From Rhodanobacteraceae bacterium (GTDB lineage: Bacteria > Pseudomonadota > Gammaproteobacteria > Xanthomonadales > Rhodanobacteraceae): a stretch of DNA of 64,000 nt. The notes under the pieces are model-generated. The model worked only from the letters and a program-made list of their open reading frames with translations, ran no database searches and was not told the origin of the DNA. Position 1 is the stretch's first letter; each line of letters begins with the position of its first letter. Below are positions 2,926 through 64,000 of the stretch, one piece after another. A program made the translations under genes and the position numbers. Where the stretch lies: NCBI GenBank assembly GCA_016790075.1, contig JAEUPP010000024.1:124001-188000 (forward strand). Reading direction: 5' to 3'.

Positions 2926-4380
2926 ATGAAGACCATTGCAGCACTCGTTCTTTTGCTCTGCAGCGCTTGGGCTGCAGCAATCGAGTTCACGCCAGCCGCA
3001 ACGAACGACGACATCGACAATCCGCACAAGGGCTACATGCTCTGGGGCACGACCTGGGCGCAGGGCGGCGCGGACAATTACTACGGCGCCAGCATCTATC
3101 ACGTCTACGTGCCCTGGCGCGAACTCGAGACCGCCGACCAGGTATTCGACTGGGCCGGCTTCGAGCAGCGCCATCTTCAGCCCATACTCGCGGATGACCC
3201 GAAAGCCACCTTCGTACTGCGGCCAGTCGCCGACTATCCGGACAGCGTCGGCACCGGGCTGTCGTTCTACTACACCGGCGGCCAGCCCGAGCGCGACTAT
3301 CCGCTGTTCCTCGAACAGCCGCCGCTGAACATCGCCGGATTCGACTATGTGAGCTGCAACGGCGATGGTCCGGGCCGCACCCCCGACTGGAACGCCGCAG
3401 CGTTCGCGACTCAGGCCGTGCAGCTCGTGCAGGCTCTGGCGCAGCGCTACGATGCGGACCCGCGCGTCACCGCCATCCAGGTCGGCCTGCTCGGTCTATG
3501 GGGCGAATGGCACCAAAGCGGCTGCGACGCGAACGGACCGGGCAATGCGATCAAGATCGCCGTGCGCGATGCCTACCAGCAGGCCTTTTCGACCGCGCGG
3601 CTGCAGACACGTTATGCCCGCAATCCCGATGTCGTCGGCACCGACTTCGCCTTCCACGAAGACTATTTCCCTTCGTTCACGGCGAACTGCATCTACGGAT
3701 TCCCCTTGTGTGATGTCAGCGGCGACTGGAGCCTGGAATACGGTCTGGCCAACATCGTGCCAGCGGCGAGGCAGAACTGGCGCCGCAACCCGGTCTCAGG
3801 TGAAAGCCCACTGGCCAGTCAGCAGGACACCTGGACCAGCGATACCGACGACGTAATCACGGTACTGAACAACTACCACTTCAGTTTTCTGGGGCCAGCC
3901 GGCAAGCACGCACAGCCGGGCTTCGCGGCGCCACTCGCCCGTATCAAGCGCGCGCTGGGCTACGACTTCAGCGTCAATCGCTTTGTGCTCGGCGATCCGA
4001 TAACCCAGGGCACATCGCTGCCCTGGCGGCTGGAACTGGCCAATCGCGGCAGCGCGCCGGCCTATCACGCGACGCAAGTCCGGCTCGAATTGCTCGACGC
4101 CGGCAACGCCGTACGGGCAACCACCCCGCTAGCGGTCACGCTGGATACGGCCGAGCCGGGAACATCCAGCACCTGGCGTGGACGCCTGCACTGGAGCGGT
4201 CTGGCGGCCGGCAGCTATACCCTGCGCCTCGTCGTTGCCGATGCGGTTGCGGGCCGACCCGGCATCGTGCTGCAGAACATGCCCCGCGACGCGGCGGCTG
4301 CAGGCGTGCGGCTGGGCAGCATCACGCTCGCGGCGGTTGTCGGCGACCGCATCCATGCCGACAGCTTCAGCCTGTTCTGA
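2926..4380 (+). CDS. Secreted DUF4832/DUF4874-like protein, glycosidase-fold suspected
   Basis: 484-residue exported protein. A signal peptide ([18 protein letters not shown]) precedes a mature part beginning with [14 protein letters not shown], the opening typical of DUF4874/DUF4832 proteins, which are thought to carry a TIM-barrel-like glycoside-hydrolase fold. Further barrel-like strands are [12 protein letters not shown] and [14 protein letters not shown], whose acidic residue lies where barrel enzymes often place catalytic acids. A beta-sandwich region follows (about residues 340-470, [17 protein letters not shown]). The protein ends in [12 protein letters not shown], a tail shared with two other secreted proteins in this window. 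Substrate and activity are unknown. ATG 2926 is chosen because it gives the signal peptide; the frame is open further upstream. Confidence 0.75.
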
Positions 4381-20559: not shown

Positions 20560-23160
20560 TCAAGGACTCTTTAGAAGGAGTGCAAAACTGGAGACCGAAT
20601 GACCTCCCAGTTGTGACGATTTCATTCCAGAAATGGAGCAACCGAGCACAGATCCTGTGGACTGCTGATCGACATACGGACGAATACTCGTCGCCCACGT
20701 CTGTTCGTTATCACTAGACAAGTTCGTGTCACGAATTTTGCCACCACATGCCACCAGGGCATAGCCAGAAGCAGACGGCTCCCTCAATGAAACAGTGCCT
20801 GACGCAAAGTACGAATCTGTACTTGACCCACCTTTAGTAATGTAGTTGCTCGTAAACGTCACCGGCACCGTAACCCCAGGCAAGCTGACACTCTGTTTCA
20901 GACCGACGGCATAGGCGGTAACTGATCCAGCAGCAGCAGACGCCCCAACTGTCGAAGATCCCACCACCCAGACATTTTCGACAGGCAACGACATGTAGGC
21001 GAGCCTCGGAGGAGTGGGGCCAGCATCGACTTTGATGCCTCCACCTACCAGAACGTAGCCGGGCGGCAAGGTAGCGGAGCTGTATGTGCCGGGCGCGGCT
21101 GTCTTCTTGACGGTAATCAAGTTCTGCCGCAGCTGAGCCGGCGTCATACCACTGACCTTGAGACCAATAGCCCATGCACGCGCGTACGTAGGCGGACTGG
21201 GCAACGGTGACGCCGCGCCGGATGTTGAGACCACCCAGGCACTGTAGTCATCTTTTGGGTAGGCCGCGGCAACGTACGAGCCTTCCCGGTAGTTCGCCGC
21301 ACGAGTCGACATCCCTTCTACACCGCCACCGACGACCACGTAGTCGGCAGGCACGGCAAGCTCGAAAGTCGAATTCGGGGTGAATGCGACGTCTCTTGTC
21401 TCGAACACGGCTGTGTTAACCCTGCCGCTGGAGTCCACACTTTCTGCCACCTTCGCGAACAGGCCACCACAGTAAGCGCCAACAGCAGCAAAAGCTCTAG
21501 CCACATCAGTTTCCGGGTACGAATGGAACCACGCCGCATGCTGAAAAGCGCACGCGGTATTGTTGTATGCGCGCTTCTGATTCCCGGATATAAATGTATT
21601 TAGCCTACTGCTGGTAAGTAAACGGTTTGCTATTGCAAAAGAAAACAACTCAAAAACCATTTTCGTATTCCAGCCCGGCGTTTTGGCCAATAAGCAGGAT
21701 GCCTTGTTGACCGGACCAGATGAGTAATGAGCATCTGTTGCGTTTGTAACATCGTTAATGTCATCGTAAGAGTCGCCGTCACGCGGCGGGTCACACATGT
21801 CCCTGAAATGACCATTGCTGTTTTTTCTGAGCTCATCACCTACGATAAAATCGTTTTTCACAGACCAAGCGCTGTTCTTGCTTTTCCAGAAATACTCGGA
21901 CGCTTCGCCGGAAAGATCAGCAAACGACTCCTCGACCCCACCAGACGCCCCGATATACATGACACCAGACCCGAGAATCCACCTTGCAAAGAAGGCATGC
22001 CCGATTTCATGGCCGAGTGTGTCCGCACCCATTTCCGGATAATTGTCAGCATCGCCCATGCCGAGCGTGACAACACCAACGGTGGGATCAAATGCAGCTA
22101 TTGCACCAGTCCTGATGGTATTCACAGCTACCAACAGCTGCGTACTCCACGGCGAAGCCATATACGCCTTGAACATGTCAATCGCGTTCTGCGCAAAATA
22201 CATAGCATCATTGGTCACCCCGAAACCACCGTTGAGGCTGAGGTCAATGTTATTTGGGCAAGTAAAACTTACCGAAGGTGACCCCGGCGTGTTCCCCTTG
22301 TAGTCATACGCTATCGTTACCCGAACATCCGGATTCTCTAAATAGCATCTCGAGCTTGAAGTGGAGTCCTTGTAAATGGGCAGGTAATCATAGCCACTGG
22401 TAGCTCCCCACGTGTATTTCCCTGTTTTCAGATTGCCACCGGGACCAGTACCTTTAACCGGAACACCGCTCAAATTTCTTGTGTCATCCCATTTGAGCAG
22501 CTGAGCACCGGAGAACTCATCAACAATCACCACCGCACTGACAACCTTGTTCTGGCTGGCGTAGTCAATTCTCAGTCTTACATACTGGGCCAAGCGGGCT
22601 CTGCTGCTGTCGTCAACAAAGACGATTCGCGTTTTCTCCGTCACCTCAACAAAGGTGCTTGCCGGTCGCACCCCATGCACCAACTCTTCTGCCCTGGCTA
22701 TGACCGCGTCACCAGCGTAAGGCCCTTGCGCAATGGTCGGAATGTCCGACTTGATGCCGGATACGACGTTTCCCATTACCCTGTTGAAGCTTCCGATATT
22801 TACCTGGGATGGCCAGGTAATCCAATGGTCCTGTACGGAAAATAGTATGTCTGCGCCATAAACCGGCATACCGTAGTACTTCTGCTGGTATGAATAAGTT
22901 GAGGCCTTGCCTTTTAATCGCTCACTCTGTGCCTCAAGACTCCAAGTTGATTGCTCGTCGACTGCTGGAGCGATTCGCAGATTGTTTAGTTGCCAGCCGG
23001 TAATCGTAGGCTGCCCACCGTTGAACCCGGTTCGGTTTGCGTTCAAAGTAGTGATGTCAGCCCGGGACAGATCCGTTTGAACCGCCGCGTTAACGTCAGC
23101 GATGCCAGCGATACCAGTAGCCAGGTAAAGAAGAATTTTTGTGCTTGAGCTGAATTTCAT
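20560..23160 (-). CDS. Secreted M4-type (thermolysin-like) metallopeptidase with three C-terminal repeats
   Basis: 866-residue exported zinc protease. After the signal peptide (about 1-25) comes an FTP/PepSY-like propeptide (25-230). The catalytic domain follows with His384-Glu385 and His388 in LGHEIGHAF, the third ligand Glu411 in GGVEESFADLSGE, and the M4 general histidine His478 in AHYSSGPVNKA. The C-terminal 270 residues hold three copies of a beta-rich unit marked by ADYVVVGGGVEG, PGYVLVGGGIKV and SGYALVACGGKI. These may be binding or anchoring domains. The gene is noticeably AT-richer than its neighbours and is bordered by gene-poor DNA, which suggests horizontal acquisition. It probably degrades extracellular protein. 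Confidence 0.9.
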   Translation of the reverse strand: MKFSSSTKILLYLATGIAGIADVNAAVQTDLSRADITTLNANRTGFNGGQPTITGWQLNNLRIAPAVDEQSTWSLEAQSERLKGKASTYSYQQKYYGMPVYGADILFSVQDHWITWPSQVNIGSFNRVMGNVVSGIKSDIPTIAQGPYAGDAVIARAEELVHGVRPASTFVEVTEKTRIVFVDDSSRARLAQYVRLRIDYASQNKVVSAVVIVDEFSGAQLLKWDDTRNLSGVPVKGTGPGGNLKTGKYTWGATSGYDYLPIYKDSTSSSRCYLENPDVRVTIAYDYKGNTPGSPSVSFTCPNNIDLSLNGGFGVTNDAMYFAQNAIDMFKAYMASPWSTQLLVAVNTIRTGAIAAFDPTVGVVTLGMGDADNYPEMGADTLGHEIGHAFFARWILGSGVMYIGASGGVEESFADLSGEASEYFWKSKNSAWSVKNDFIVGDELRKNSNGHFRDMCDPPRDGDSYDDINDVTNATDAHYSSGPVNKASCLLAKTPGWNTKMVFELFSFAIANRLLTSSRLNTFISGNQKRAYNNTACAFQHAAWFHSYPETDVARAFAAVGAYCGGLFAKVAESVDSSGRVNTAVFETRDVAFTPNSTFELAVPADYVVVGGGVEGMSTRAANYREGSYVAAAYPKDDYSAWVVSTSGAASPLPSPPTYARAWAIGLKVSGMTPAQLRQNLITVKKTAAPGTYSSATLPPGYVLVGGGIKVDAGPTPPRLAYMSLPVENVWVVGSSTVGASAAAGSVTAYAVGLKQSVSLPGVTVPVTFTSNYITKGGSSTDSYFASGTVSLREPSASGYALVACGGKIRDTNLSSDNEQTWATSIRPYVDQQSTGSVLGCSISGMKSSQLGGHSVSSFALLLKSP

Positions 23161-29119: not shown

Positions 29120-32100
29120 ATGAACCGATTTTTCGCCGCTGTATTCACCGCGCTTGCTGCCTTCAGTTCCAGTTGGGCTGCGGTTCCCACCCCCATACAT
29201 CAGTGGCGTTTTGATGAATTTCCCGATTGGCACAATCAACCATTTTTGACCGAAAACATCGACAGCCGCATCGAAGGCTACCTGGGCGCGACCGATCTGC
29301 AGCTGGTCAACGCAGCGAGTGCGGCGCGTGTCGCCGGACACCAGGGGCGCGCAGTCAGCCTCGATGGTATTGACGACTACCTTGCCCTGCCCGCCACAGT
29401 CGCCCAGCGCTTCGGCGGCACGTTCACACTGTCCTGCTGGCTGCGCACCAATGCCGCCGGCGGCACCAGCGCCGCGCAGAGCCCTGGCTTTGCCGGCAGC
29501 CTCGCCGATGGCACCGCCTGGGGCTGGCTCGACGCCCAGGGCCGGATCGGCGTGGCGGCGGCGGGAGCCGATCTGCGTTCATCCCGACGCGTGAACGACG
29601 AACGCTGGCATCACCTGGTCATCACACGCAATAGCGTTTCAGGCCGCGTAACACTGTACGTAGACGGCGTGCTTGAGGCGCAGGCCAACGGCACGGCCGG
29701 GCCGCTGGGTGCAACGTGGCGCGGGCTCGGCCGACTGGAAGGATCCAGCGCCGGTTTTCTGCGCGGCCGCATCGACGAGATCTCGGTTTTTGGTGTGGAG
29801 CTCGATCAGTCCGCTGTTTTCGCCCTGCGACGCAATCATGCACCCAAGGCGCGCGCGGTGACCGTGAGCGGCGGTCCGGGCACGGTGCAGACGCCCAGTG
29901 TGCTGTTCCAGGCCTTCGACCCCGATGGCGATGCGCTTCAGGTGGTTTCGCATTCGGCGCCAGGCCACGGCAGCGTCACCCATCAGGGCGATGGTTCCTT
30001 CGCATACACCAACGCTGCAACAACCGACGATGCGTTCGATGTCGTCCTAGGAGACGGCAACGGCGGCTTCGTGAAAACCACGGTGGTGGTGAACTACGCG
30101 CCTGTAGCCCCCGCCAACCCGGAGCTTCGCACTACAAATTTTACACATTTATCACTATTTCAGGCCGCCGGCTCGCCGGCATTGCTGCCGAGATCGCGGG
30201 TGCCACGTTTTATCGACATCGATGGCGACGGCGACCAGGATCTGCTGGTCGGCCATACCGGCGCGATCTGGCTATACGAGAACACAGGCAATGCCACAGC
30301 ACCGGACTTCAGCGCCGGCCGGCGCGCACAGGCCGCCGGCACCGATATCACGCCGACTGGCTCCGCCGCGATCGCCCTCGCCGACCTGAGCGGCGACGCA
30401 CGCGATGATCTTGTCGTCGCCGACGAAAGCGGGCGCCTGCGCGTGTATCCGCGGGCCGCAGGTGCAGGCGCCGTATTCAGTGCTGCACACACGGTCAAGG
30501 CCGTCGACGGCAGCGACTTCGTGATACCAGACCGGCATTTTGACGTTACCGACTGGAATGCCGACGGTCACGCTGATCTGCTCGTGGGCAGCTTCGACCG
30601 CGGCATTTCGTTGTTCCTCAATCGCGGAACCGCGTTCGATCCGCGCTTTGACCGGCAGGCAGCCATTGTGTTGACGACGCATGCCTACAACAGCTACCCG
30701 CGCGCGACCGATTTGCTCCGCACTGGCCGGCCCGCCCTGCTGCAATCACTCAATTGGGGCAGCATCACCTACTGGCCCGCGCCACTGCTGAAGCCGGCGC
30801 TGCTGGGTGGATACGCCGGCTCACTATCCTTCACCGCCAGCGACGGCAGCACGCCTAGCCTGGGCGTATTGCTCAACAGCCCTATACCCGATTTCGCCGA
30901 CCTCAATGGCGACGGCGCGCTCGATGTGGTGCTCGGCGGGCATAGCGACAACGGATACCTCTACCTGGCTTTCGGCCGCCCGGCATCCTGGAGCGGCGCG
31001 ATCGCCGCGCTCGAAGCAATCTACGATGCCCATCCCAACGACCTCGGTGCGGCGCTGACGGCCAACAACCGGCAGTTGCTCGAAGCCGTGAAGACACAAT
31101 TCCGCATCCTTGCCGAACACGTACGTACTGCGGCACCGGCAGAGGCTGAACGCCTGTTTGCCGCGCTTTCCACTCACATTGCAAAGTATCCCTTCCTGCG
31201 CATGGACGCCACGCTGGATATCTCGCGTTTCCATCTGGTGCCAGCCATTGCTAGCCAGACCCTACTGTTCCTGTCGCGGCTGCGCCCCGACACTGCAGCA
31301 AATCGCACACGTGTCACCGAGATTGCGCGCCTGTCCGGCAAGAAACGCCGTCTGTACGAGCAATACCGCCTGCTCATTGGCGATAACCAGCGCTCTCCAA
31401 CTGACACGCTGGACAGCTACGCGATCTTCATGTCGCGGGAATCCCGCGAACTGTTTCCCGATAGCCTGATCACCGTCGGCCAGCACTGCGACGACCAGTT
31501 GGGCGACAACGGCAACAGTGCGCTGGTTGACTACTTCGACGGCGGCAAGAACGTGTTCTGTAACAACTATGCCGGCTATGCCACCGATCCCTGGGCCAGT
31601 GACCTCAAATCGGCCATTACGGCATTCTTCGGCGCGACCGCCGCGACCGGCGACGCGACTGTGGAAATCTTCGCACACGAGGCCACGCATTCGCTGGACG
31701 CCTACGTGAACGGCCGCGCAAACCAGAATCTGCGGCAACGCTGGGGTCAGCTGCTGGTCGATATCGGCGGCCCCGAGGTCCGCGCCCAGGCCGCCGCGCC
31801 GAGCTGGATTTCCTGGCCGCTGACCCAGGAGCAATTCCGGGCAGCCGGCCTTTGGAATGGCGACAGCTCAACCTGGAGCGCCGCGTGGGACAGCTACTGG
31901 CAGAGCGGAGCCGGTGCCACCTGGAACCACAGCGCATTCATGCGCGGGTCCACCGGCTGGTTCCTGGTGACACCGCAGGAAACCCTGGCCACCCAAGGCA
32001 ACCAGCACTGGGTGTCCTCGCAGGGACGTTTCGTCGGCGCTGTCGACCGGTTTCGCCGCAGCACGCAACCTGGCGGTCATCCGCAGATGAAGCACAACAT

Positions 32101-32626
32101 GACCGAAGTCGTACTGTTCCTGGACATGCTCTCGGTCGGCCTCAACAAAATCCCCATGTACACAACGCATGCCGACACCCGGTTGCGACGCACGTTATGG
32201 ACACTCGGTTCGGCCTGGATCGAACGCAACGACGCCGGGCTTCCAGTCAATGTCGATATCGACTGTACCCGCTATGCGCTGGAAATCGACACCATCGGCC
32301 GGGTGACCGGTGTCAACGTCACAGGAGCGCGGCTGGCGCCTGACTCACTGCTGGTGGTTCCGGGGACAGCCGCTGACATCAACGTACTGGCCAACGACGT
32401 GAGCGTGACGGCGGCGGCGCTGGGTACTCCGGTCATCGTGTCCCCGCCGGCGCACGGCAGCGTAAGCGTGCAACCCGATGGCAGCCTGCGCTATGTGCCC
32501 GCGGCCGGCTATCGCGGCCTTGACGGATTGCACTACAGCCTGCCGGACGCGCCAGTCACCTGTTCCACCGAGGTGTCACTCAACGTGAACGTGGACCGGA
32601 TATTCGCCAACGCGTTTTCACCCTGA
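29120..32626 (+). CDS. Secreted LamG / FG-GAP / HExxH zincin multidomain protein
   Basis: 1168-residue exported protein, family not recognised as a whole. After a signal peptide (MNRFFAAVFTALAAFSSSWA) come a laminin-G-like sandwich (about 55-240; GRAVSLDGIDDYLALP, WHHLVITRNSVSGRVTLYVD) and a cadherin/Big-like domain (about 250-335). FG-GAP/VCBS repeats follow (FIDIDGDGDQDLLVG, VTDWNADGHADLLVG, FADLNGDGALDVVLG), then a helical zincin-like region with His853, Glu854 and His857 in AHEATHSLDAY and a possible third ligand Glu954 in PQETLATQGNQHW. A final Big-like domain (HGSVSVQPDGSLRYVPAAG) precedes the tail VDRIFANAFSP. Protease activity is inferred only from the metal-binding motif. Confidence 0.78.
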   Translation: MNRFFAAVFTALAAFSSSWAAVPTPIHQWRFDEFPDWHNQPFLTENIDSRIEGYLGATDLQLVNAASAARVAGHQGRAVSLDGIDDYLALPATVAQRFGGTFTLSCWLRTNAAGGTSAAQSPGFAGSLADGTAWGWLDAQGRIGVAAAGADLRSSRRVNDERWHHLVITRNSVSGRVTLYVDGVLEAQANGTAGPLGATWRGLGRLEGSSAGFLRGRIDEISVFGVELDQSAVFALRRNHAPKARAVTVSGGPGTVQTPSVLFQAFDPDGDALQVVSHSAPGHGSVTHQGDGSFAYTNAATTDDAFDVVLGDGNGGFVKTTVVVNYAPVAPANPELRTTNFTHLSLFQAAGSPALLPRSRVPRFIDIDGDGDQDLLVGHTGAIWLYENTGNATAPDFSAGRRAQAAGTDITPTGSAAIALADLSGDARDDLVVADESGRLRVYPRAAGAGAVFSAAHTVKAVDGSDFVIPDRHFDVTDWNADGHADLLVGSFDRGISLFLNRGTAFDPRFDRQAAIVLTTHAYNSYPRATDLLRTGRPALLQSLNWGSITYWPAPLLKPALLGGYAGSLSFTASDGSTPSLGVLLNSPIPDFADLNGDGALDVVLGGHSDNGYLYLAFGRPASWSGAIAALEAIYDAHPNDLGAALTANNRQLLEAVKTQFRILAEHVRTAAPAEAERLFAALSTHIAKYPFLRMDATLDISRFHLVPAIASQTLLFLSRLRPDTAANRTRVTEIARLSGKKRRLYEQYRLLIGDNQRSPTDTLDSYAIFMSRESRELFPDSLITVGQHCDDQLGDNGNSALVDYFDGGKNVFCNNYAGYATDPWASDLKSAITAFFGATAATGDATVEIFAHEATHSLDAYVNGRANQNLRQRWGQLLVDIGGPEVRAQAAAPSWISWPLTQEQFRAAGLWNGDSSTWSAAWDSYWQSGAGATWNHSAFMRGSTGWFLVTPQETLATQGNQHWVSSQGRFVGAVDRFRRSTQPGGHPQMKHNMTEVVLFLDMLSVGLNKIPMYTTHADTRLRRTLWTLGSAWIERNDAGLPVNVDIDCTRYALEIDTIGRVTGVNVTGARLAPDSLLVVPGTAADINVLANDVSVTAAALGTPVIVSPPAHGSVSVQPDGSLRYVPAAGYRGLDGLHYSLPDAPVTCSTEVSLNVNVDRIFANAFSP

Positions 32627-32844: not shown

Positions 32845-34491
32845 TCAGGGAAGGGTCAGCGTGGCCACCGCGCTGTCATTGCCTACCTGTGCGTCGTATT
32901 GGCTGCCCGAAACCAGCAGGTTTGCCGACGTGCTGCCCGAGGGCGTGCCGCCGACGCGTAGCTGCAGCATCTCGCTACTGCCGCCGGCAGCAATCACGCC
33001 GCGGTAGGTGCAACGCGGCGCGGCCAGCGCGATATCGCATTCCCAGTTCGTACCAGCGGCTTCCAGCACTACGCCAGCAGCTGGCGGTGTAAAGGTGGCA
33101 ACCAGGCCCGAAGCCGTACCGACACCACGTGCCGGCGACGGCATCTGCAGATTGTCGATGCGCACCTGGTAGTTGACCAGTGTCGGAGCACTCGCACTTT
33201 CCACCACCGGTGTCAGGCGAGCGGCCAGATCGACGCTGCCGTAGCCGGCCATACGCCGGCCGGCAATGCCGTAGTCCTGATAGCTGTTGGTGTCGTCGAT
33301 CTGCCAGATCACACTCACGTCGCCGTCAGCGTCACTCGCAATCGCTGCATACGAGGGATTGGGGCTGCCATCGGAAATCAGCGTCTCGCCGCCGCGCGCC
33401 GTGCCGTTCGCCGCATAGCGCTGCACGTAGAGCGTATTGCCGCGGCGCTGCCAGGCTGCGGTGAACTCGCCGCTGGCACGTGCCATCGCGACGGCGGGCC
33501 TGGTCGGCTCTTCGGTCGGATAACCTTGCTTGTAGGCCAGCGTGAACTCGTTGCCGGCCGGATAGCCGTCGCTGTCGTAGCGCTGACCGACAATGCGCGA
33601 ATCGTAGCGGTTGATGTAGCTGTCCCAGACGATCACGCTGTTGCCGCCTGCATCCATGCCGATATCGGCCACACGCTGCGAACCCGTGGCTGACCAGTAG
33701 TTCACCCGCTCGGCGGCACCTCGCGCGATGCCGGTCGCATCGAAACGCCGGCGGTAGACGTCGTAGTCGGCACCGTCGCGTTTGTCATGCGTCCAGACCA
33801 CGGTGAAATTGCCGGCATCGTCGGTGGCCAGGCGCAGATTCGGCCCGAAATAGCCACTGCCCTGTGGTGCGACCACGATCTCACTGCCGAGGGCATTGCC
33901 GGCCGCGTCAAAACGCCGTGCGCGGATTTCAGCACCGCCGGCCGGATAGGCGGTCCAGGCGACTACATAACGGCCATTGGAGCTCATCGCCACAACCGCA
34001 CCACCGGCTTCGGGCACGTTCGTATCGATCTGTTGCTGCGGCCCCAGCGCAACGCCATTACGGTCGAAACGGCGCTGGTATACATGAGGTTTACTGTAAA
34101 GGTAAATTTCGTGTGCAGCCCACACCACCGTGAAATTGCCATCCGCATCGGCGGCAACGGATGGGTAAAAATAGCTGCCGGCCTGCGGAGCACTGTTGAC
34201 GGTGATCTCGCCGCCAAGCGGATTGCCGGCGCCGTCCAGGCGCCGCGCTCGCACGCCCGAGGCCGCTGGATACGGTGGATTGCTGAACCATACGGCGATG
34301 GCATTGCCATCGGCTGTCGCCGCCACATCGGCCTGCTGCTGCGCACCGGCGGTCACCTGGTGATAGCGGACCACCGGGCCTGCCGCCGCGCCGGGCGCGC
34401 TCAGTGCATGAGCGCTGCCTATGCCGGCCATGGCAAGCAGCAGGCCGGCCGCAAGCCGCGTGGAAGAGAAAGAAAGGTATTGCGTGTGCAT
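32845..34491 (-). CDS. Secreted beta-propeller-repeat protein
   Basis: 548-residue exported protein with a signal peptide (about 1-30). Seven or so repeats of about 50 residues follow, built on the pattern VAxDADGNFTVVW...RRFDAxGxALGxE (for example SVAADADGNFTVVWAAH and LATDDAGNFTVVWTHD), probably forming a propeller. After about residue 425 comes a DUF11-like beta domain (LVNYQVRIDNLQMPSPARG) with two cysteines. No catalytic motif is visible. Such proteins occur widely in Xanthomonadales without known function. It converges with the LamG-zincin gene. Confidence 0.75.
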   Translation of the reverse strand: MHTQYLSFSSTRLAAGLLLAMAGIGSAHALSAPGAAAGPVVRYHQVTAGAQQQADVAATADGNAIAVWFSNPPYPAASGVRARRLDGAGNPLGGEITVNSAPQAGSYFYPSVAADADGNFTVVWAAHEIYLYSKPHVYQRRFDRNGVALGPQQQIDTNVPEAGGAVVAMSSNGRYVVAWTAYPAGGAEIRARRFDAAGNALGSEIVVAPQGSGYFGPNLRLATDDAGNFTVVWTHDKRDGADYDVYRRRFDATGIARGAAERVNYWSATGSQRVADIGMDAGGNSVIVWDSYINRYDSRIVGQRYDSDGYPAGNEFTLAYKQGYPTEEPTRPAVAMARASGEFTAAWQRRGNTLYVQRYAANGTARGGETLISDGSPNPSYAAIASDADGDVSVIWQIDDTNSYQDYGIAGRRMAGYGSVDLAARLTPVVESASAPTLVNYQVRIDNLQMPSPARGVGTASGLVATFTPPAAGVVLEAAGTNWECDIALAAPRCTYRGVIAAGGSSEMLQLRVGGTPSGSTSANLLVSGSQYDAQVGNDSAVATLTLP

Positions 34492-53171: not shown

Positions 53172-54446
53172 ATGAGCCCCGCGCAGAATTCCAGTAGCCG
53201 GTCCAGGATTTGGCAACTCCGCCTCCCCCGCTCCATGCCCGCGGGACTAGGAATTGCGCTGACCATGATCGCGAGCGCTGCCGGCGCGACCGAGCTGGAC
53301 CTGATCATTCCGCCCAGCCTGTCCGGTGGCGACGAGGCCGCCTACTCCGTAGCCATCGACGGTCAGCGTGTTGCTGTCGGCCTGCCGGGAGCCGGCGACG
53401 GCAGTGGCGCAGTCGTCATTTTCAACTGCAGCGCCACCGGCTGTGTGCAGGAGCAGCGGCTGGAACTCTCCCCGGCCCGCAGCGGCGCGGCCTTCGGCAG
53501 CAGCCTGGCAATCGGCGGTGATGTGTTGGCCGCAGGCCTGCCACAGCGCGACGGCGGCGCCGTGCGGCTGTATCGCCGCAGCGGCGGCGGCACCTGGTCA
53601 CTGGAGCGCGAATTCGCATCGGCGACAACGGGGGACAAGTTCGGCCTGGCCATCGCCCTGGGGTCGGGCTATGTGGCGGTTGCCGCACCCGAATCCGGCG
53701 GCGGCAACGGCCGCGTGGAACTGTATGCGGACAGTGGCGGCAGCTGGTCGCATGCACAGACACTGACGGCACCGGCCAACGGCGGCAGATTCGGCCAAGC
53801 CCTGGCCCTGAACGGCGCTACGCTGCTGGTCGGTGCGCCGTTTCTGGCTGGCGCAACACCAGGCAGCTACGCCCGCGGAAGTAGCTATGCCTACACCCTG
53901 TCCACGGGCACCTGGTCCCTGCAGGCAACGTTGCAGGCAAACGCCGCAGCCGATGGTGACCTGTTCGGCTATTCCGTTGCACTGGATGGCGATATCGCGG
54001 TTATCGGCGCCCCGCGCCGCGCCGCAACCCAAGGCCGTGGCTTCGTGTTTCAGCGCAGTGCGGCGGTATGGACACAACAGGCGGAGCTGAGCGCCGGTCG
54101 CAGCTTGCCGGGCGACTATATGGGCTGGTCCGCGGCGATCAGCGGCAGCCGCGCCGGACTTGGTGCCCCGTTCGCCAGCGAAGATCCCGGAGAAAATTGC
54201 GGCCGGTTGCAACTGTTCGACGGCCCCGGCACCTGGCGCGAAAACTCGCTGGGTGAAGTAGCCCGCCCCCAGGCCGGCGAGCTGAGCGGCTGGGCCGTAG
54301 CTGTCTCAGGCGAGCGCTGGCTGGCCGGTGCGCCCGGACGCAGCATAGGCCTGCTGCCGCACTACGGCGCGGTCTATCGCTTCGACCCGGACCAGCGCCT
54401 GTTTGCCGATGGGTTTGAAACGCCGGAGAGCCCCTGCGCGCCATAG
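53172..54446 (+). CDS. Secreted FG-GAP repeat protein
   Basis: 424-residue exported protein. An extended signal peptide (hydrophobic PAGLGIALTMIASAAG) precedes repeated FG-GAP units of about 50 residues, such as GAAFGSSLAIGGDVLAAGLP, DKFGLAIALGSGYVAVAAPE and DLFGYSVALDGDIAVIGAP. These would fold into a beta-propeller with integrin-like blades. It ends in DQRLFADGFETPESPCAP, the shared tail seen also at 4380 and 32626. An internal ATG at 53235 is a possible alternative start. The function is unknown; the context between rml and RHS genes does not help. Confidence 0.78.
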   Translation: MSPAQNSSSRSRIWQLRLPRSMPAGLGIALTMIASAAGATELDLIIPPSLSGGDEAAYSVAIDGQRVAVGLPGAGDGSGAVVIFNCSATGCVQEQRLELSPARSGAAFGSSLAIGGDVLAAGLPQRDGGAVRLYRRSGGGTWSLEREFASATTGDKFGLAIALGSGYVAVAAPESGGGNGRVELYADSGGSWSHAQTLTAPANGGRFGQALALNGATLLVGAPFLAGATPGSYARGSSYAYTLSTGTWSLQATLQANAAADGDLFGYSVALDGDIAVIGAPRRAATQGRGFVFQRSAAVWTQQAELSAGRSLPGDYMGWSAAISGSRAGLGAPFASEDPGENCGRLQLFDGPGTWRENSLGEVARPQAGELSGWAVAVSGERWLAGAPGRSIGLLPHYGAVYRFDPDQRLFADGFETPESPCAP

Positions 54447-54664: not shown

Positions 54665-55949
54665 GTGCGTTTTTTCGCCGCAATGGCGGCGGCTGGCCTG
54701 GTGCTGTTGCCGCCCGTGGTATCCGCGCGCTGCGGCGTGGCGGCGTGGCGGCGTGGCGGCGAATGAATCATCGGTCTATGGATACCTGAGCTGGTCGGGT
54801 TCGCGCTGTACCACACTGGAAGAAGTCGAGGCGGAGCTGCGCGGTTCGCTGATGCCGCAGGCGGTGGCGGCTACCGGCAGTGCAACCCGCAGCTACGATG
54901 CCAACGGCAATACCACCGCCAGCACGGCAACCAGCGCCTATCCGCTGATCTATGATGACGCCAACCGCCTGAGCCAGGTATCCGCCGATGGCCTGGGCAG
55001 CCGCTCCGACTACCGCTATACCTATAACGGGCTGGGCCAGCGCACGGCCAAGTCCAGCCCCACGGCCGAAACCGAAACGCTCTACGACGAAGCCGGCCTG
55101 CGCCTGAGTGATAGCCACTGGACCCTGGACTGTGGCAGCAGCGAATCGCTGACGGCAGGCGGATCCAATGCGGCCAATGCATCAAATGCAACACGTGGAT
55201 CAATAGCAACCAGCCCCTGCATCCGCCTGGCCAACGCCCGCACCGACTATATCTACCTCGACGGCCTGCCCATCGCCGTCGCCCGCTACGCCGCGGGCAG
55301 CAGCACGGCACAACTGAGTTATCTGGAAACCAACCACCTCGGCACTCCACGTATCGCCGTCGATGCCAGCACCCAGGCCATCCAATGGCGCTGGGACCTG
55401 CTGACCGCCAGCTCCGGCGACCACCTCGCCACTGTCCTGCCCGGTGGATTCCCCCTCGACCTGCGTTATCCGAGACAGTATTTCGATGCGGAGACGGGGT
55501 TGCATTACAACTACTTCCGCGATTACGACCCAGCCGTTGGACGGTATGTTGAGAGTGATCCGATTGGGTTGGCTGGTGGAAGCAACGTTTATTCCTACGT
55601 AGGCAGTGCACCATTACAGGTAGTCGACACACTCGGACTCCAGTCAAATGGCCTTGGATGCCTTGCGCTTGGCACCGCAGGTGCGGTTGTCGGAGGATTG
55701 GCATGTTCTCCAACTGGCCCATTTGCTGTTGCACGTGCGACGGGCGAAGGTGTCTTGGCTGGAGGGCTGATAGGGTGCGGCGCTGGGCTGTTAGTGCCTC
55801 AGCCGGCGGAGCCGACTTTTCCTGAGATTGCTGAATCCACTCCTGTGAAACCCTGGGAGTTGCCATATCTCGAGAAGAGAGCATATTCGAGGTTTTGCGT
55901 CGGAGAAGAAGACCCGTGCAGTCAACTGAAGGCAGCAATAAACACTTAA
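54665..55949 (+). pseudogene. Shortened RHS protein with frame-broken signal peptide
   Basis: A GTG at 54665 opens a signal peptide (RFFAAMAAAGLVLLPPVVSA), but the frame ends shortly after an 8-base tandem repeat (54732-54761). The continuation is in another frame (54753-55949): ANESSVYGYLSWSGSRCT, an RHS-type N-terminal element, joined directly to the last YD repeats. After these comes the RHS core (NHLGTPRIAVDAS, FDAETGLHYNYFRDYDPAVG, RYVESDPIGLAGGSNVYSYV). About 400 residues remain where RHS proteins usually have 1000-1500, so most repeats are deleted. A tip of about 105 residues follows DTLGL, with glycine-rich segments and no known toxin motif. One copy or four copies of the repeat would restore the frame. 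Confidence 0.7.
54732..54761. repeat. 8-bp tandem repeat, 3.75 copies
   Basis: The unit gcggcgtg occurs three times in a row and is followed by gcggcg. It lies at the junction between the signal peptide and the mature part of the RHS protein. Because 8 is not a multiple of 3, each unit gained or lost by slippage changes the reading frame. Confidence 0.85.
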
Positions 55950-60086: not shown

Positions 60087-60865
60087 GCGGATTCGCTCCG
60101 CTCGGGCAGCGGAATCGAGACCCGCACCTGAGTCCCCTCGCCGGGTTCGGAGACCAGAGCGAAGCGGCCGCCGAACAGCAGCACGCGTTCACGCATGCTG
60201 GCGATGCCGGTGCTGAGCCCTGCACCCGACCTGGCCAGCGCCTGATCGACGTCGCAGCCACAGCCGTCGTCAACCACCAGCAGGTGGATGCTGTCGCCGC
60301 GTACATCGACGCTGACGACGACCGTCTGCGCCGCCGCGTGCTTGGCGACATTGGCCAGCGCTTCCTGGGTTACGCGAAACAGCAGTGTCGCCAGCTCACT
60401 GTCGAGGTCGGCCGGTATGTCGTGGGTTTCCACGTCGATCTGAAGCCGACTGCTTTCGCCGGCGGTGCGGGCCAGCCAGCCCAGGGCCGCGGTCAGGCCG
60501 AAATCGTCGAGAACTTGTGGACGCAGCAGGCGGGACAAGGTGCGGGTCTCGCGTATGGCGACATCACACAGCCCCACCGCCTCGGCCAGCATGTGCCCGG
60601 CGCCCGGAGCGCAGGGCAGCTGATCGAGGCGATGGCGCAGGGCGGTCAGGTGCTGACCTATGCCATCGTGGAGGTCGCGCGCGAGCCGGCGGCGCTCGTC
60701 TTCCTGCACACGCCAGACGGACCGGGCGAGCTGACGGAAGCGCTGCTCGCCGCTGCGCAGTTGCAGGAACAGGCGTTCCTGTTCCGTACGCAGACGCAGC
60801 AGGGTCGAACGGATTTCGTCTTGCTGCGGGTTGGCTAGGCTTTTCTCGGGCATGGGTGAGCTCAC
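60083..60865 (-). CDS. Soluble NarX-type sensor histidine kinase
   Basis: 260-residue kinase of the HisKA_3/HATPase_c class. The phosphorylated His66 lies in RRLARDLHDGIGQHLTAL; the ATP-binding region includes VTQEALANVAKHAAAQ and GIASMRERVLLFGG. There is no membrane helix or sensory domain: only a coiled coil (RLRTEQERLFLQLRSGEQRF) precedes the core, so its input must come from another protein. It starts with GTG overlapping the TGA of the Ser/Thr kinase gene (GTGA) and overlaps the regulator gene downstream. Confidence 0.92.
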   Translation of the reverse strand: MSSPMPEKSLANPQQDEIRSTLLRLRTEQERLFLQLRSGEQRFRQLARSVWRVQEDERRRLARDLHDGIGQHLTALRHRLDQLPCAPGAGHMLAEAVGLCDVAIRETRTLSRLLRPQVLDDFGLTAALGWLARTAGESSRLQIDVETHDIPADLDSELATLLFRVTQEALANVAKHAAAQTVVVSVDVRGDSIHLLVVDDGCGCDVDQALARSGAGLSTGIASMRERVLLFGGRFALVSEPGEGTQVRVSIPLPERSESA

Positions 60866-63800
60866 GGTGTGGCCGCATCAGACAGGCGCAGTTGACGGCA
60901 CCAGGCCTGGAAGGCCGCCTGACTGCCAGCGGGGATCTCAGCCGCATAGGCCGCCGCAGCAGCCAGGCCCCGCTGCCGCGCCAGGGTACGGTCTGCAGCC
61001 GGAGCCGTACTCAGCGCAAAGCGTGCATGCAGCAGCAAGGCACGGCCATAACTGGGCAACCGTGCCAGCAGCGCGAGTGCTTCGCGGTATTCGCGCCCGG
61101 CCTGGGCCGGTTCGACCTGCAGCGCGGTCAGCGCCAGCTCCAGGCGCAGCGGCACGCTGGCGTATTTCTCCTGCAGGCTGCGCGCGCGCTTGAGAGCCGC
61201 ACTGGCTTCACCTGTGCGGCGCAGCTGCCGCAGCGCCTCGGCCTGATACAGATAAGCCGAGAACTCCAGCGCAAGGCCGTGACTGTCGCGCGCGTGTCCC
61301 GTAGCGCTTTCCGCGGCGGTGAGCGCGGCCGCCGGGTTGTCTCGCCCCAGGGCGATCTGGGCCTGCAGCAGCGCCAGCTGGGCGGCCTGCTCGCTGCCGG
61401 CGATGGCAGGTCCCTCAAGCGCCGTGGCGACGGCGGACGCCGCCTCCCAGTCGCCGAGGTCGGCCAATGCCCGGCCACGCAGCAACTGCATTTCGTTGAC
61501 GCCGCGAGAATCCTGCGCGCGCCTGAACAGATCATCCGCCTGGGCGGCGCGGTTCAATGCCCGCTCGTAATGGCCTTCCAGCCGGTCGAGCTCAGCCAGG
61601 CTGGCCAGGCTGACGGCGCGCTCTTCCGCCATCTGCTGGGTCTCGGCCGTCGACAGGCTCGCGTCCAGCGCCACGCGCGCGCGCGCGAATTCACCACGGG
61701 CGATCTGGGCCAGCGCCAGATTCTGCTGTGTACGTACCGAACCGCCGGGATCGTCCATGCCGGCATAGAGAGTCGCTGCCTGCTCCCAATAGACCTGGGC
61801 GTTGTCGAACTCACCGATCTGGTAATAGGCGAATCCGACGTTCAGCAGGCTTTCGGCGATTTCCCGGGGCACGCCCAGGCTTTGCCGGAAACTCAGCGCT
61901 TCGCGATAGGCCGCCAGGGCCTTGCGGTAATCACCCCGCTCCTCGGCGAGCACGCCGACATCGTTGGTCAGCCCTGCCAAGGCGCTGGCATCACCCAGCG
62001 GCGCAAGAATCTGCCGCGCCTGGGCCAGCGCCGCATCCGCCTGGTCGAACTGACCGCGGATCGCATGCGTGGTCGCCAGATTGCGCAGGCTCATGGCCTG
62101 ACCCCGGGTGTCGCCGAGTGCAGCGCGCAGGCGCACGGCCCGTTCCAGCTGCTCCTGGGCCGGCTCAAGCTGGCCAAGATGGCGATAGCCCAGGCCTAGC
62201 GCATTGGTCACATCAGCGCGCAGGCGGTCGTCTTCGTAGCGGTTGGCCAGCACCAGCGCGCGGACGAGATAATCGTCGACAGCCTGCTTGTGCTGTCCTT
62301 GCATGATGGCGAACTTGCCCAGACCAAACCAGGCGTCGGCATTGCGCGGATCAACCGCGACCACGCGCTGCAGGCGGCTCTGCGCCTCGTCCAGATTGCC
62401 GCTGCTGCCTTCAGCGCGGGCCAGCAGCAACTGGGTCGGCAGGTCGTCCGGCGCGAGTTTGAGGGCGCGGCGGAACTGTTCGATGGCAGTGGCCGTGTCG
62501 GCCAGCAGCAGCGCCGCATAACCCTTGGCTTCAAGTGCGGGCAGATCGTTCTGGCCGGCCAGCGAATCCAATGCGTCGCGCGCGGCAGTTTCAGCTTCGG
62601 CAGACTGGCCCAGGCGATCATTGGCGCGAAGGATAATCTGCCACAAGGTGGAATCTCGTCCGGCGGCCGCGGCCGCGGCCAGCAGCGGCGGCGGCCTTTG
62701 CGGTTTGCGCAGATCCGCCACCGCGCCAACCGCGGCCAGCACGTCGGCGCTGGGCCAGGTACCGGCTGGGCCGGACTCCCCCAGCGCCAGATGCAGCGCG
62801 GTTGCCAGTTCTGTGAGTGCCTGTGGCAGCTCGGCCTCGACGACCCAGGGCGTCGCCGTCTGCCATTCGGGCTCGTCGCGGCCCGGCAGATAACGCGCCA
62901 GACGCAACTGGATCTTGTCGCCCTCGCGCGTGAATGTGCCTTCGAGCAGCCGGCGCGCCTGCAGCGCCTCGCCGATACGCGCGCGATAACGCCGCGCCGT
63001 ACGGCTGTCATAACCGAGCTCGCTCAAACCACGTTCGGCGCGTACGGCATCGTTGAGCAGGGCGCTGTTGCCGGCATGGCGCAGGACCAGGTAGTTCCAG
63101 ATCCCGGCGGCCAGTGCGCCATCGCCGTCCCGCGGAGATTCGACGACAAAGGGCAGTGGCAGCAGATCGACCGCGGCTTGCTGCACAGCTGCCGGCGCCA
63201 CCGCAGCCGGCACTACAGGAGTTCCGGGGCCATACCACCACCAGGCCAATCCCGCACTGCCAATGAGGCCGGCTGCCAGCACGGCGACGCCCCAGCCGGG
63301 GGCCATGGCTTGCCGCGGCAGGCCGGGCAGCTTCTCCTGTTCTATCGCCTGCACGACGGCGGCGGCGCTTTGCAGACGCCGCGCCGGTTTCAACTCAAGC
63401 AGTCGCATGCAGAGCCGGACGGCAAAGGTGGGCAGCTCCGGCTTGCTCAGCGCCGGTGACGGTGGTGTGCGCACCATGCGCTGGGCCAGCATTTCCGCGG
63501 CGGTGCCGCCACGGAACGGCAAGGTGCCAGTCAGCATTTCGTAGAGCAGCAGGCCGAGCGCGTACAAGTCGCTGCGGGCATCGATGGGATCAGCACGGGC
63601 CTGTTCCGGCGACAGGTATTCCGGCGTACCTATGATCATGCCGCTTGCGGTCAAGCCGGTGCGGCCGGCCGAGCGGGCGACGCCGAAGTCCGTAATCAGT
63701 GCGTCGCCGGCCTCGTCGATCAGCACGTTGGCGGGTTTCAGATCGCGATGCACAACCTGGCGCTGATGCGCCGCCTGCAAGCCCAGGGCGAGCTGACGCG

Positions 63801-64000
63801 TAATCTGCAGCGCCTGCGCCGGCGGCAAATGCCCCTGTTCGGCCAGCAGCTCTTCGAGCGAGCGGCCGGACACGTAGTCCATGCTGATCAGCCAGGCCTG
63901 GCCATGCCGCACCAGGTCGTGAATGCGCACGACATGTGGGCTGGAAACCTGCCGCGCGAGCACCAGCTCCTGGCGGAAACGGTCGAACGCATCGTCGCGA
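60862..64000 (-). CDS. Ser/Thr protein kinase with TPR C-terminal half (partial)
   Basis: The reading frame continues past the window edge, so the N-lobe with the glycine loop and ATP-binding lysine is missing. The visible part starts in the kinase (DDAFDRFRQELVLARQVSSP), with HRDLKPANVLID, TDFGVAR and GTPEYLSPEQARADPIDARS, all intact. A single membrane helix (WGVAVLAAGLIGSAGLAWWW) follows, then a periplasmic domain and at least ten TPR-like repeats (ADAWFGLGKFAIMQGQHKQA, LRNLATTHAIRGQFDQADAAL). It is coupled to the histidine kinase. It probably transduces an extracytoplasmic signal. Confidence 0.93.
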   Translation of the reverse strand, partial: RDDAFDRFRQELVLARQVSSPHVVRIHDLVRHGQAWLISMDYVSGRSLEELLAEQGHLPPAQALQITRQLALGLQAAHQRQVVHRDLKPANVLIDEAGDALITDFGVARSAGRTGLTASGMIIGTPEYLSPEQARADPIDARSDLYALGLLLYEMLTGTLPFRGGTAAEMLAQRMVRTPPSPALSKPELPTFAVRLCMRLLELKPARRLQSAAAVVQAIEQEKLPGLPRQAMAPGWGVAVLAAGLIGSAGLAWWWYGPGTPVVPAAVAPAAVQQAAVDLLPLPFVVESPRDGDGALAAGIWNYLVLRHAGNSALLNDAVRAERGLSELGYDSRTARRYRARIGEALQARRLLEGTFTREGDKIQLRLARYLPGRDEPEWQTATPWVVEAELPQALTELATALHLALGESGPAGTWPSADVLAAVGAVADLRKPQRPPPLLAAAAAAGRDSTLWQIILRANDRLGQSAEAETAARDALDSLAGQNDLPALEAKGYAALLLADTATAIEQFRRALKLAPDDLPTQLLLARAEGSSGNLDEAQSRLQRVVAVDPRNADAWFGLGKFAIMQGQHKQAVDDYLVRALVLANRYEDDRLRADVTNALGLGYRHLGQLEPAQEQLERAVRLRAALGDTRGQAMSLRNLATTHAIRGQFDQADAALAQARQILAPLGDASALAGLTNDVGVLAEERGDYRKALAAYREALSFRQSLGVPREIAESLLNVGFAYYQIGEFDNAQVYWEQAATLYAGMDDPGGSVRTQQNLALAQIARGEFARARVALDASLSTAETQQMAEERAVSLASLAELDRLEGHYERALNRAAQADDLFRRAQDSRGVNEMQLLRGRALADLGDWEAASAVATALEGPAIAGSEQAAQLALLQAQIALGRDNPAAALTAAESATGHARDSHGLALEFSAYLYQAEALRQLRRTGEASAALKRARSLQEKYASVPLRLELALTALQVEPAQAGREYREALALLARLPSYGRALLLHARFALSTAPAADRTLARQRGLAAAAAYAAEIPAGSQAAFQAWCRQLRLSDAATP

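Follow-up and report, generated by a model that had tools for sequence, protein, structure and literature searches.

A C-terminal tail on unrelated exported proteins of Lysobacterales, a candidate type II secretion tag that co-occurs with PF11356-type GspC

Introduction

The type IX CTD of Bacteroidota is a C-terminal signal that is added to a Sec signal peptide and serves outer-membrane crossing; it is a folded domain of ~80 residues. Substrates of type I secretion, by comparison, have no N-terminal signal peptide. In the GlyGly-CTERM/rhombosortase and MYXO-CTERM/myxosortase systems, a short C-terminal tag is common to unrelated exported proteins, dozens of them in each genome, and both systems are tied to type II secretion (excerpts of PMC11980579 and abstracts on GlyGly-CTERM); MYXO-CTERM tags are reported to work when internal too (excerpts of PMC11980579). 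Type II substrates of A. baumannii are directed by a short motif of the InvL type together with GspN (excerpts of PMC12802150, where type IX secretion is also contrasted with type II secretion).

How the type II secretion system (T2SS) recognizes its substrates is a long-standing question, and the excerpts of PMC10128026, PMC11981180, and PMC12802150 used here give no common signal as known. Elsewhere, T2SS substrates need no tail of the kind described below, and conformational signals are favored (excerpts of PMC7949064 and PMC10128026). Some substrates in Vibrio and Dickeya depend on the PDZ domain of GspC (excerpt of PMC12369372), and recognition by this domain has been linked to the Ig-fold of VesB (V. 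cholerae) and to an Fn3 loop of PelI (D. dadantii), which may offer a likeness to the present case (excerpts of PMC12369372 and PMC7949064). Xanthomonas XpsC is reported to have a single helix at the corresponding C-terminal place (excerpts of PMC11981180).

Here we describe a short, polar to acidic C-terminal tail with two F residues that in Lysobacterales is found on unrelated proteins, numbering from dozens to about a hundred in a genome, and that co-occurs with a T2SS. We found no earlier description of this tail in the open-licence literature.

Results

Three tailed proteins in the window

The window, i.e., the whole 64-kb stretch of DNA that was analyzed, contains three plus-strand genes for exported proteins that end alike. 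A DUF4832 protein (2926..4380; Pfam PF16116, E = 6.9e-12) has its tail and stop codon at 4339..4380, with the core DRIHADSF starting at 4345; H replaces the first F, and this variant is the weakest of the window's three tails. A LamG/FG-GAP/cadherin-like protein (29120..32626; PF13385, PF13517, PF17963, and others) ends in VDRIFANAFSP and a stop (32591..32626; core DRIFANAF from 32594). The third, an FG-GAP_2 protein (53172..54446; PF14312, E = 9.8e-38), ends in DQRLFADGFETPESPCAP and a stop (54390..54446; core QRLFADGF from 54393). Signal peptides are visible by eye on all three, that of the FG-GAP_2 protein having a longer n-region. The first-pass annotation had described a shared tail on three secreted proteins without a common fold, and each element of that description is confirmed: the window sequence has all three tails ending at a stop codon, and Pfam assigns the proteins to DUF4832, to LamG plus FG-GAP plus cadherin/Ig-like, and to FG-GAP_2, respectively.

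The expression [DQ].[ILV][FH].[DN].F has three matches when the window is translated in six frames, all three within 17 codons of a stop, compared with means of 0.095 matches, and 0.045 near a stop, in residue shuffles of the window. Since the expression was written after the three tails had been seen, this count alone is no independent evidence; the motif was therefore tested genome-wide, and the genome-wide counts do constitute independent evidence. Two further window proteins, an M4-type peptidase (20560-23160, minus strand) and an unknown protein (32845-34491, minus strand), have signal peptides by eye and lack the tail, so the tag is not present on every exported protein. A piece of an RHS-repeat-like protein (by eye; 54753-55949, plus strand) lies immediately downstream of the FG-GAP gene.

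The motif in the genome of origin

The genome from which the window derives (5.62 Mb, 83 contigs) was searched with two degenerate DNA patterns, neither of which demanded a stop codon. The first, encoding F-x-[DN]-x-F with a next codon that starts with RA, gave 74 matches against 10 for its reversed control; the second, with D two residues upstream and nothing demanded after the second F, gave 80 against 4. Together they mark 111 distinct places, and a stop follows within 15 codons at 76 of these; among the others, the distance to the stop is 16 to 20 codons in none, 21 to 60 codons in 11, and more than 60 codons in 20, while 4 have no stop inside the fetched stretch. Both F residues and the [DN] were imposed by the patterns but C-terminal position was not, and the motif is concentrated at C termini (76 of 111) rather than at random positions, as an end-of-protein signal had been expected to be.

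The 76 tails follow the consensus D-x-[ILV]-F-x-[DN]-G-F-[EQ] plus 0 to 8 residues. Of these, 67 have D two residues before [ILV], 47 have G as the turn residue, and 57 have E or Q directly behind the second F. One to nine residues follow the last F, an upper limit set partly by the 15-codon cut, and 54 of the 76 tails stop after one or two. The coding 24-mers are different in all 76 cases, with both synonymous codons used at conserved positions, and the tail is therefore not a copied DNA element. Mean column identity among the tailed proteins is 6%, and they match 72 Pfam families (E ≤ 0.001), the 25 most frequent of which include RCC1 repeats, beta-helices, and sortilin-type propellers as well as subtilases, GH18, LPMO_10, zinc carboxypeptidase, and phospholipase C. 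The tail itself has no model among these 25 of 72 Pfam families, nor among the 25 most frequent of the 63 NCBIfam families matched by the 76 tailed proteins at E ≤ 0.1.

In a few proteins (L151, L167, L206, L217, and L226) the motif is internal or just behind the signal peptide, and C-terminal placement thus has exceptions. Two of these, L226 (G000:C63:101067) and L167 (G000:C12:61130), have it shortly after the signal peptide, i.e., N-terminal instead of C-terminal. Tailed genes may also be grouped: three tailed paralogous genes stand in tandem at L231:3467-8445, and three tailed genes lie within 7 kb at L194:10169-16553 in G000:C42, ending in IFANGFQ twice and in IFANNFGL once.

Signal peptides and tailless homologues

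A crude signal-peptide rule was positive in 70 of the 76 tailed frames, with weak scores in six of the 70 (L158, L164, L166, L193, L204, and L218, of which L204 runs off its stretch). By eye, two of the six negative frames are pieces at contig edges, two are very short, and one is probably a fragment; in the sixth, a signal is visible but is preceded by a long N-terminal stretch. A similar rule was positive in 53 of 59 tailed versus 177 of 396 other frames in stretches of the same genome and in 82 of 109 versus 199 of 475 at other loci; the background of the crude rule is high, and the contrast is therefore supportive rather than decisive. At the named loci, which hold 123 tails, 72 of the 89 complete tailed frames have a signal in the first 80 codons. 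Within the limits of so permissive a rule, the earlier statement that tailed proteins carry signal peptides extends to the whole genome, and no convincing cytoplasmic protein was seen among the 76 frames.

One tailed protein is a phospholipase C (Pfam) with a twin-arginine-type N terminus by eye, which suits a system exporting folded proteins. Homologues of this protein are present in 10 of 50 genomes searched. In both genomes of the window's genus, the tail (LFADGFDGAA and LFTDGFEQAA) comes after the end common to the family, whereas the 10 homologues in eight tail-poor genomes are untailed and end about where the tail would start. The tail is thus absent from homologues in tail-poor genomes (2 of 2 tailed versus 0 of 10), a comparison based on one genus, as no homologue was present in the remaining tail-rich genomes searched. 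This arrangement suggests that the tail is an add-on to the protein.

Distribution across bacteria

A search of 121 Lysobacterales genomes with D-x-x-F-x-[DN]-G-F gave 0 to 113 matches per genome, against 0 to 3 for controls; these figures are pattern counts, C-terminal placement having been verified in the window's own genome and in fetched subsets. In the family of the window, four genomes of three genera have 46 to 113 matches and 15 genomes of nine other genera have 0 to 2. With a slightly stricter pattern, 271 Gammaproteobacteria of other orders gave 0 to 2 matches each, 25 of the 271 having any.

A strict stop-anchored pattern, applied over public genomes, matched at least 120 stretches. 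Among the 80 matches listed, 53 bear titles that name Lysobacterales, one of its families or genera, or Marinicella (assigned to Lysobacterales by NCBI), and 22 have broader labels (Gammaproteobacteria, Proteobacteria, or Pseudomonadota). Three more (L038, L087, and L101) have real-looking tails and are recorded as Alcanivoracaceae, two of these tails coming after DIGADE/DIGAFE-type ends; the tail may therefore not be strictly confined to Lysobacterales, and either these three are mislabelled or the tail extends past the order. The remaining two of the 80, L065 and L077, were rejected as chance matches, with only 28 and 4 codons open upstream.

The tail is nearly restricted to one order, Lysobacterales. 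The first-pass annotation had suggested a signal of Xanthomonadales; this needs correcting in that the tail is present in Marinicella and further Lysobacterales families but missing from most of the genomes sampled in the Xanthomonas family. Variant tails are also found: the frames read in genus g21 of family f10 mostly end in I-F-x-D-R-F-E-stop and those of family f7 in F-A-D-S-F-E-stop, and most of them bear a signal peptide. Some g21 and f7 genomes with R or S at the fixed-G position were consequently under-counted by the fixed-G pattern. The tail observation is real, clade-wide, and much larger than the window alone could show.

Co-occurrence with type II secretion

GspC was scored as present in the 121 Lysobacterales genomes when PF11356 matched at E ≤ 1e-8. 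Genomes with at least 10 tail matches have it in 42 of 45 cases (3 without), compared with 28 of 76 genomes with fewer than 10 matches (48 without; Fisher p = 2.3e-10). The separation is complete in the window's family, in which all four tail-rich genomes and none of the 15 tail-poor genomes have a PF11356 protein. Among the three exceptions, i.e., tail-rich genomes without PF11356, G048 and G118 have canonical GspG (defined as >160 bits) and the G059 assembly is 77% complete.

Canonical GspG was found in all 27 tail-rich genomes tested (out of 45) and in 5 of 27 other genomes (G023, G029, G044, G064, and G117). Fetched matches were C-terminal tails (≤20 codons from a stop) in 6 of 6 cases in G117, 3 of 4 in G064, and 1 of 1 in G029, and G044 has one R-type tail; the sole pattern match in G023 is internal. 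As a correlate of the tail, GspG alone is slightly inferior to GspC, given that G023 is tailless despite its canonical GspG.

The association was also examined on a single-gene, midpoint-rooted RpoB tree of 75 of 80 genomes that we picked from the 121, with a motif check on the rpoB frames; the window's own genome, G004, G038, and G041 (no rpoB match) and G114 (in pieces) are left out of it. A dependent model of tail and GspC beat independence under three settings, with likelihood ratios of 17.3, 18.1, and 12.5 (4 d.f.; p = 0.0017, 0.0012, and 0.014, respectively), and dependent evolution of the tail and PF11356-type GspC is favored. A transporter that co-occurs with the tail, for which the first-pass annotation had no candidate, can now be named as a T2SS with PF11356-type GspC.

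The correspondence is imperfect in both directions. All six fetched matches of G063 are C-terminal tails, yet PF11356 is absent from this genome and its GspG is a lower-scoring one, which counts against the link; G097 (4 matches) and G054 (3 matches) are also without PF11356. Conversely, G061 and G082 have at most one tail match despite holding both PF11356 and canonical GspG. When 13 of the 14 PF11356 genomes with fewer than three matches were re-searched with the stop-anchored pattern, nine had 1 to 6 matches and four (G061, G082, G099, and G104) had none. Several GspC-positive genomes that had seemed poor in tails have the R- or S-type variants, FxDRFE-stop or FADSFE-stop. Comparison genomes without PF11356 gave 0 to 2 stop-anchored matches, as did controls, so counts of 1 or 2 are not above background and the frames must be read.

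Next to tailed genes at loci L031-L246, genes identified by eye as those of an ECF sigma factor and a Ser/Thr kinase are found repeatedly, with a kinase in 16, a sigma factor in 14, and both in 10, e.g., L153:4961-8139, L060:3421-6930, and L071:3096-6491. A similar kinase is encoded in the window at 60862-63963 (minus strand), ~6.4 kb from the FG-GAP gene. Near the gspG operon of G028 (L272), short frames repeat the peptide IHCRKRSLE, in what looks like a regularly spaced DNA repeat.

GspC and its PDZ domain

From the 70 genomes with PF11356, 24 strong GspC sequences were fetched, of which L319 was left out for its wrong frame; the other 23 all match both T2SSC and PDZ_2, confirming the PDZ domain. 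A profile of these 23 proteins finds the solved structures of OutC, PulC, and the GspC of 2i4s. Five lower-scoring GspC-like proteins gave no PDZ match at E ≤ 1. Four of them, with a charged, helix-like end by eye, come from tail-rich genomes that also hold the PDZ type and are therefore uninformative on tail-poor genomes. The fifth, from the tailless G023, ends soon after the homology region (by eye); it is a 155-residue protein (L335:1267-1731) that belongs to the T2SS with canonical GspG in that genome, a system that we take to be Xcs-like.

Discussion

Interpretation of the tail

Several lines of evidence favor a sorting or secretion signal, one of the readings offered by the first-pass annotation: the tail is C-terminal, is carried by unrelated proteins with signal peptides, and occurs with a T2SS. 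The explanation that we prefer, and to which we give slightly more credence than doubt, is that the tail serves as a short linear targeting tag for the T2SS of Lysobacterales, possibly read by the PDZ domain of GspC. A tailed protein would pass the inner membrane through Sec or Tat, fold in the periplasm, and then need its tail for type II export. The identity of the receptor is more speculative; that it may be the PDZ domain of GspC is a guess from the pattern of occurrence. PDZ ligands need a free carboxylate, and up to 8 residues after the last motif residue would be unusual. The fuller proposition, that a C-terminal peptide of ~10 residues docks on the GspC PDZ domain and would be the first linear, portable T2SS signal, is possible but seems to us rather doubtful. 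The tail's true partner could be a different gene that is inherited along with this T2SS.

The main rival is anchoring after type II export, in which the tail would be a surface-retention tag, e.g., a site of covalent or glycan attachment, instead of a signal read by the T2SS. Its action would then resemble that of GlyGly-CTERM or MYXO-CTERM tags, the proteins of which are likewise exported by the T2SS. Co-occurrence with the T2SS is expected in this case too, and NCBIfam models named for anchoring match tailed proteins at E ≤ 0.1: rhombosortase-dependent M36 (7 of 76), choice_anch_Q (6 of 76), myxosortase-dependent M36 (4 of 76), and choice_anch_D and choice_anch_J (2 of 76 each). In one small family, moreover, L127 has a hydrophobic, anchor-like end that resembles the PEP/IPTL type, where its homologue L201 has the tail and L133 has a tail variant. 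We nevertheless consider anchoring unlikely: 0 to 8 residues follow the [EQ] position in the 76 tails, with no transmembrane helix or basic end after the motif; no strongly hydrophobic 17-mer lies behind the motif in the 10 measurable matches at 21 to 60 codons; and no recurrent processing enzyme stood out in the neighbor clusters. A related alternative is that a different envelope factor, a transporter or chaperone co-inherited with the PF11356-type T2SS, reads the tail. The genuine tails of G063, a genome without PF11356, speak for such a factor, and the co-occurrence tests covered T2SS markers only. When 1279 neighboring ORFs were clustered, however, no recurrent secretion gene appeared among the clusters listed, the largest non-tail clusters being the kinase and the sigma factor and the small ones including, by eye, an RND-efflux-like protein (4 members) and an ABC ATPase (3 members). 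Given also the significant dependence on GspC on the tree, a separate factor of this kind seems quite improbable.

Two further explanations carry far less weight. As an F-containing C-terminal peptide is a plausible PDZ ligand on general grounds, the tail might serve in quality control or protein stability as a peptide recognized by periplasmic PDZ proteases of the DegP, Prc, or DegS type. Such proteases are, to our knowledge, near-universal, whereas the tail hardly occurs outside one order and is absent from close relatives, which leaves this idea very little room. A non-functional remnant or a DNA repeat spreading at gene ends would account for a tail common to many unrelated genes, but it is scarcely credible and is already disfavored by the divergence of the 76 coding sequences, by conservation of the motif across many genera, and by its scarcity in most genomes without PF11356 GspC.

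If the preferred reading of a T2SS targeting tag is true, prediction of T2SS substrates in this order would become a motif search, and the tail could provide a transferable export tag. Should it prove to be an anchor instead, it would define a new class of tags for cell-surface sorting that lack a helix. The finding that the tail goes in step with PF11356-type GspC makes the question of T2SS recognition directly testable.

Comparison with known systems

The tailed proteins have the traits of type II substrates, i.e., a Sec or Tat signal peptide (in 70 of 76 by the crude rule, with its high background) and a T2SS in the genome, and their signal peptides set them apart from type I substrates. 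The type IX CTD belongs to another phylum, and the tail differs from it in its length of ~10 residues and its link to the T2SS. The likeness to GlyGly-CTERM and MYXO-CTERM tags is closer and includes, besides size, number per genome, and the tie to type II secretion, some protein families in common (NCBIfam, E ≤ 0.1). Unlike those tags, the tail has no transmembrane helix, basic end, or glycine/serine or cysteine signature, and the neighbor clusters gave no processing enzyme for it. The anatomy of signature, helix, and basic end that marks PEP-CTERM, GlyGly-CTERM, and MYXO-CTERM was found in none of the 76 tails, nor is there a curated model of the tail among the 25 most frequent of 63 NCBIfam and of 72 Pfam families that would make it a member.

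Among signals acting on the T2SS itself, those of VesB and PelI consist of a loop or domain that is particular to one protein, whereas the tail is a linear C-terminal motif shared by many. The InvL-type motif resembles the tail in being short and differs from it in being N-terminal, next to the lipobox, and in serving lipoproteins (excerpts of PMC12802150). The tail, a member of no family tested, appears to work like a C-terminal sorting tag.
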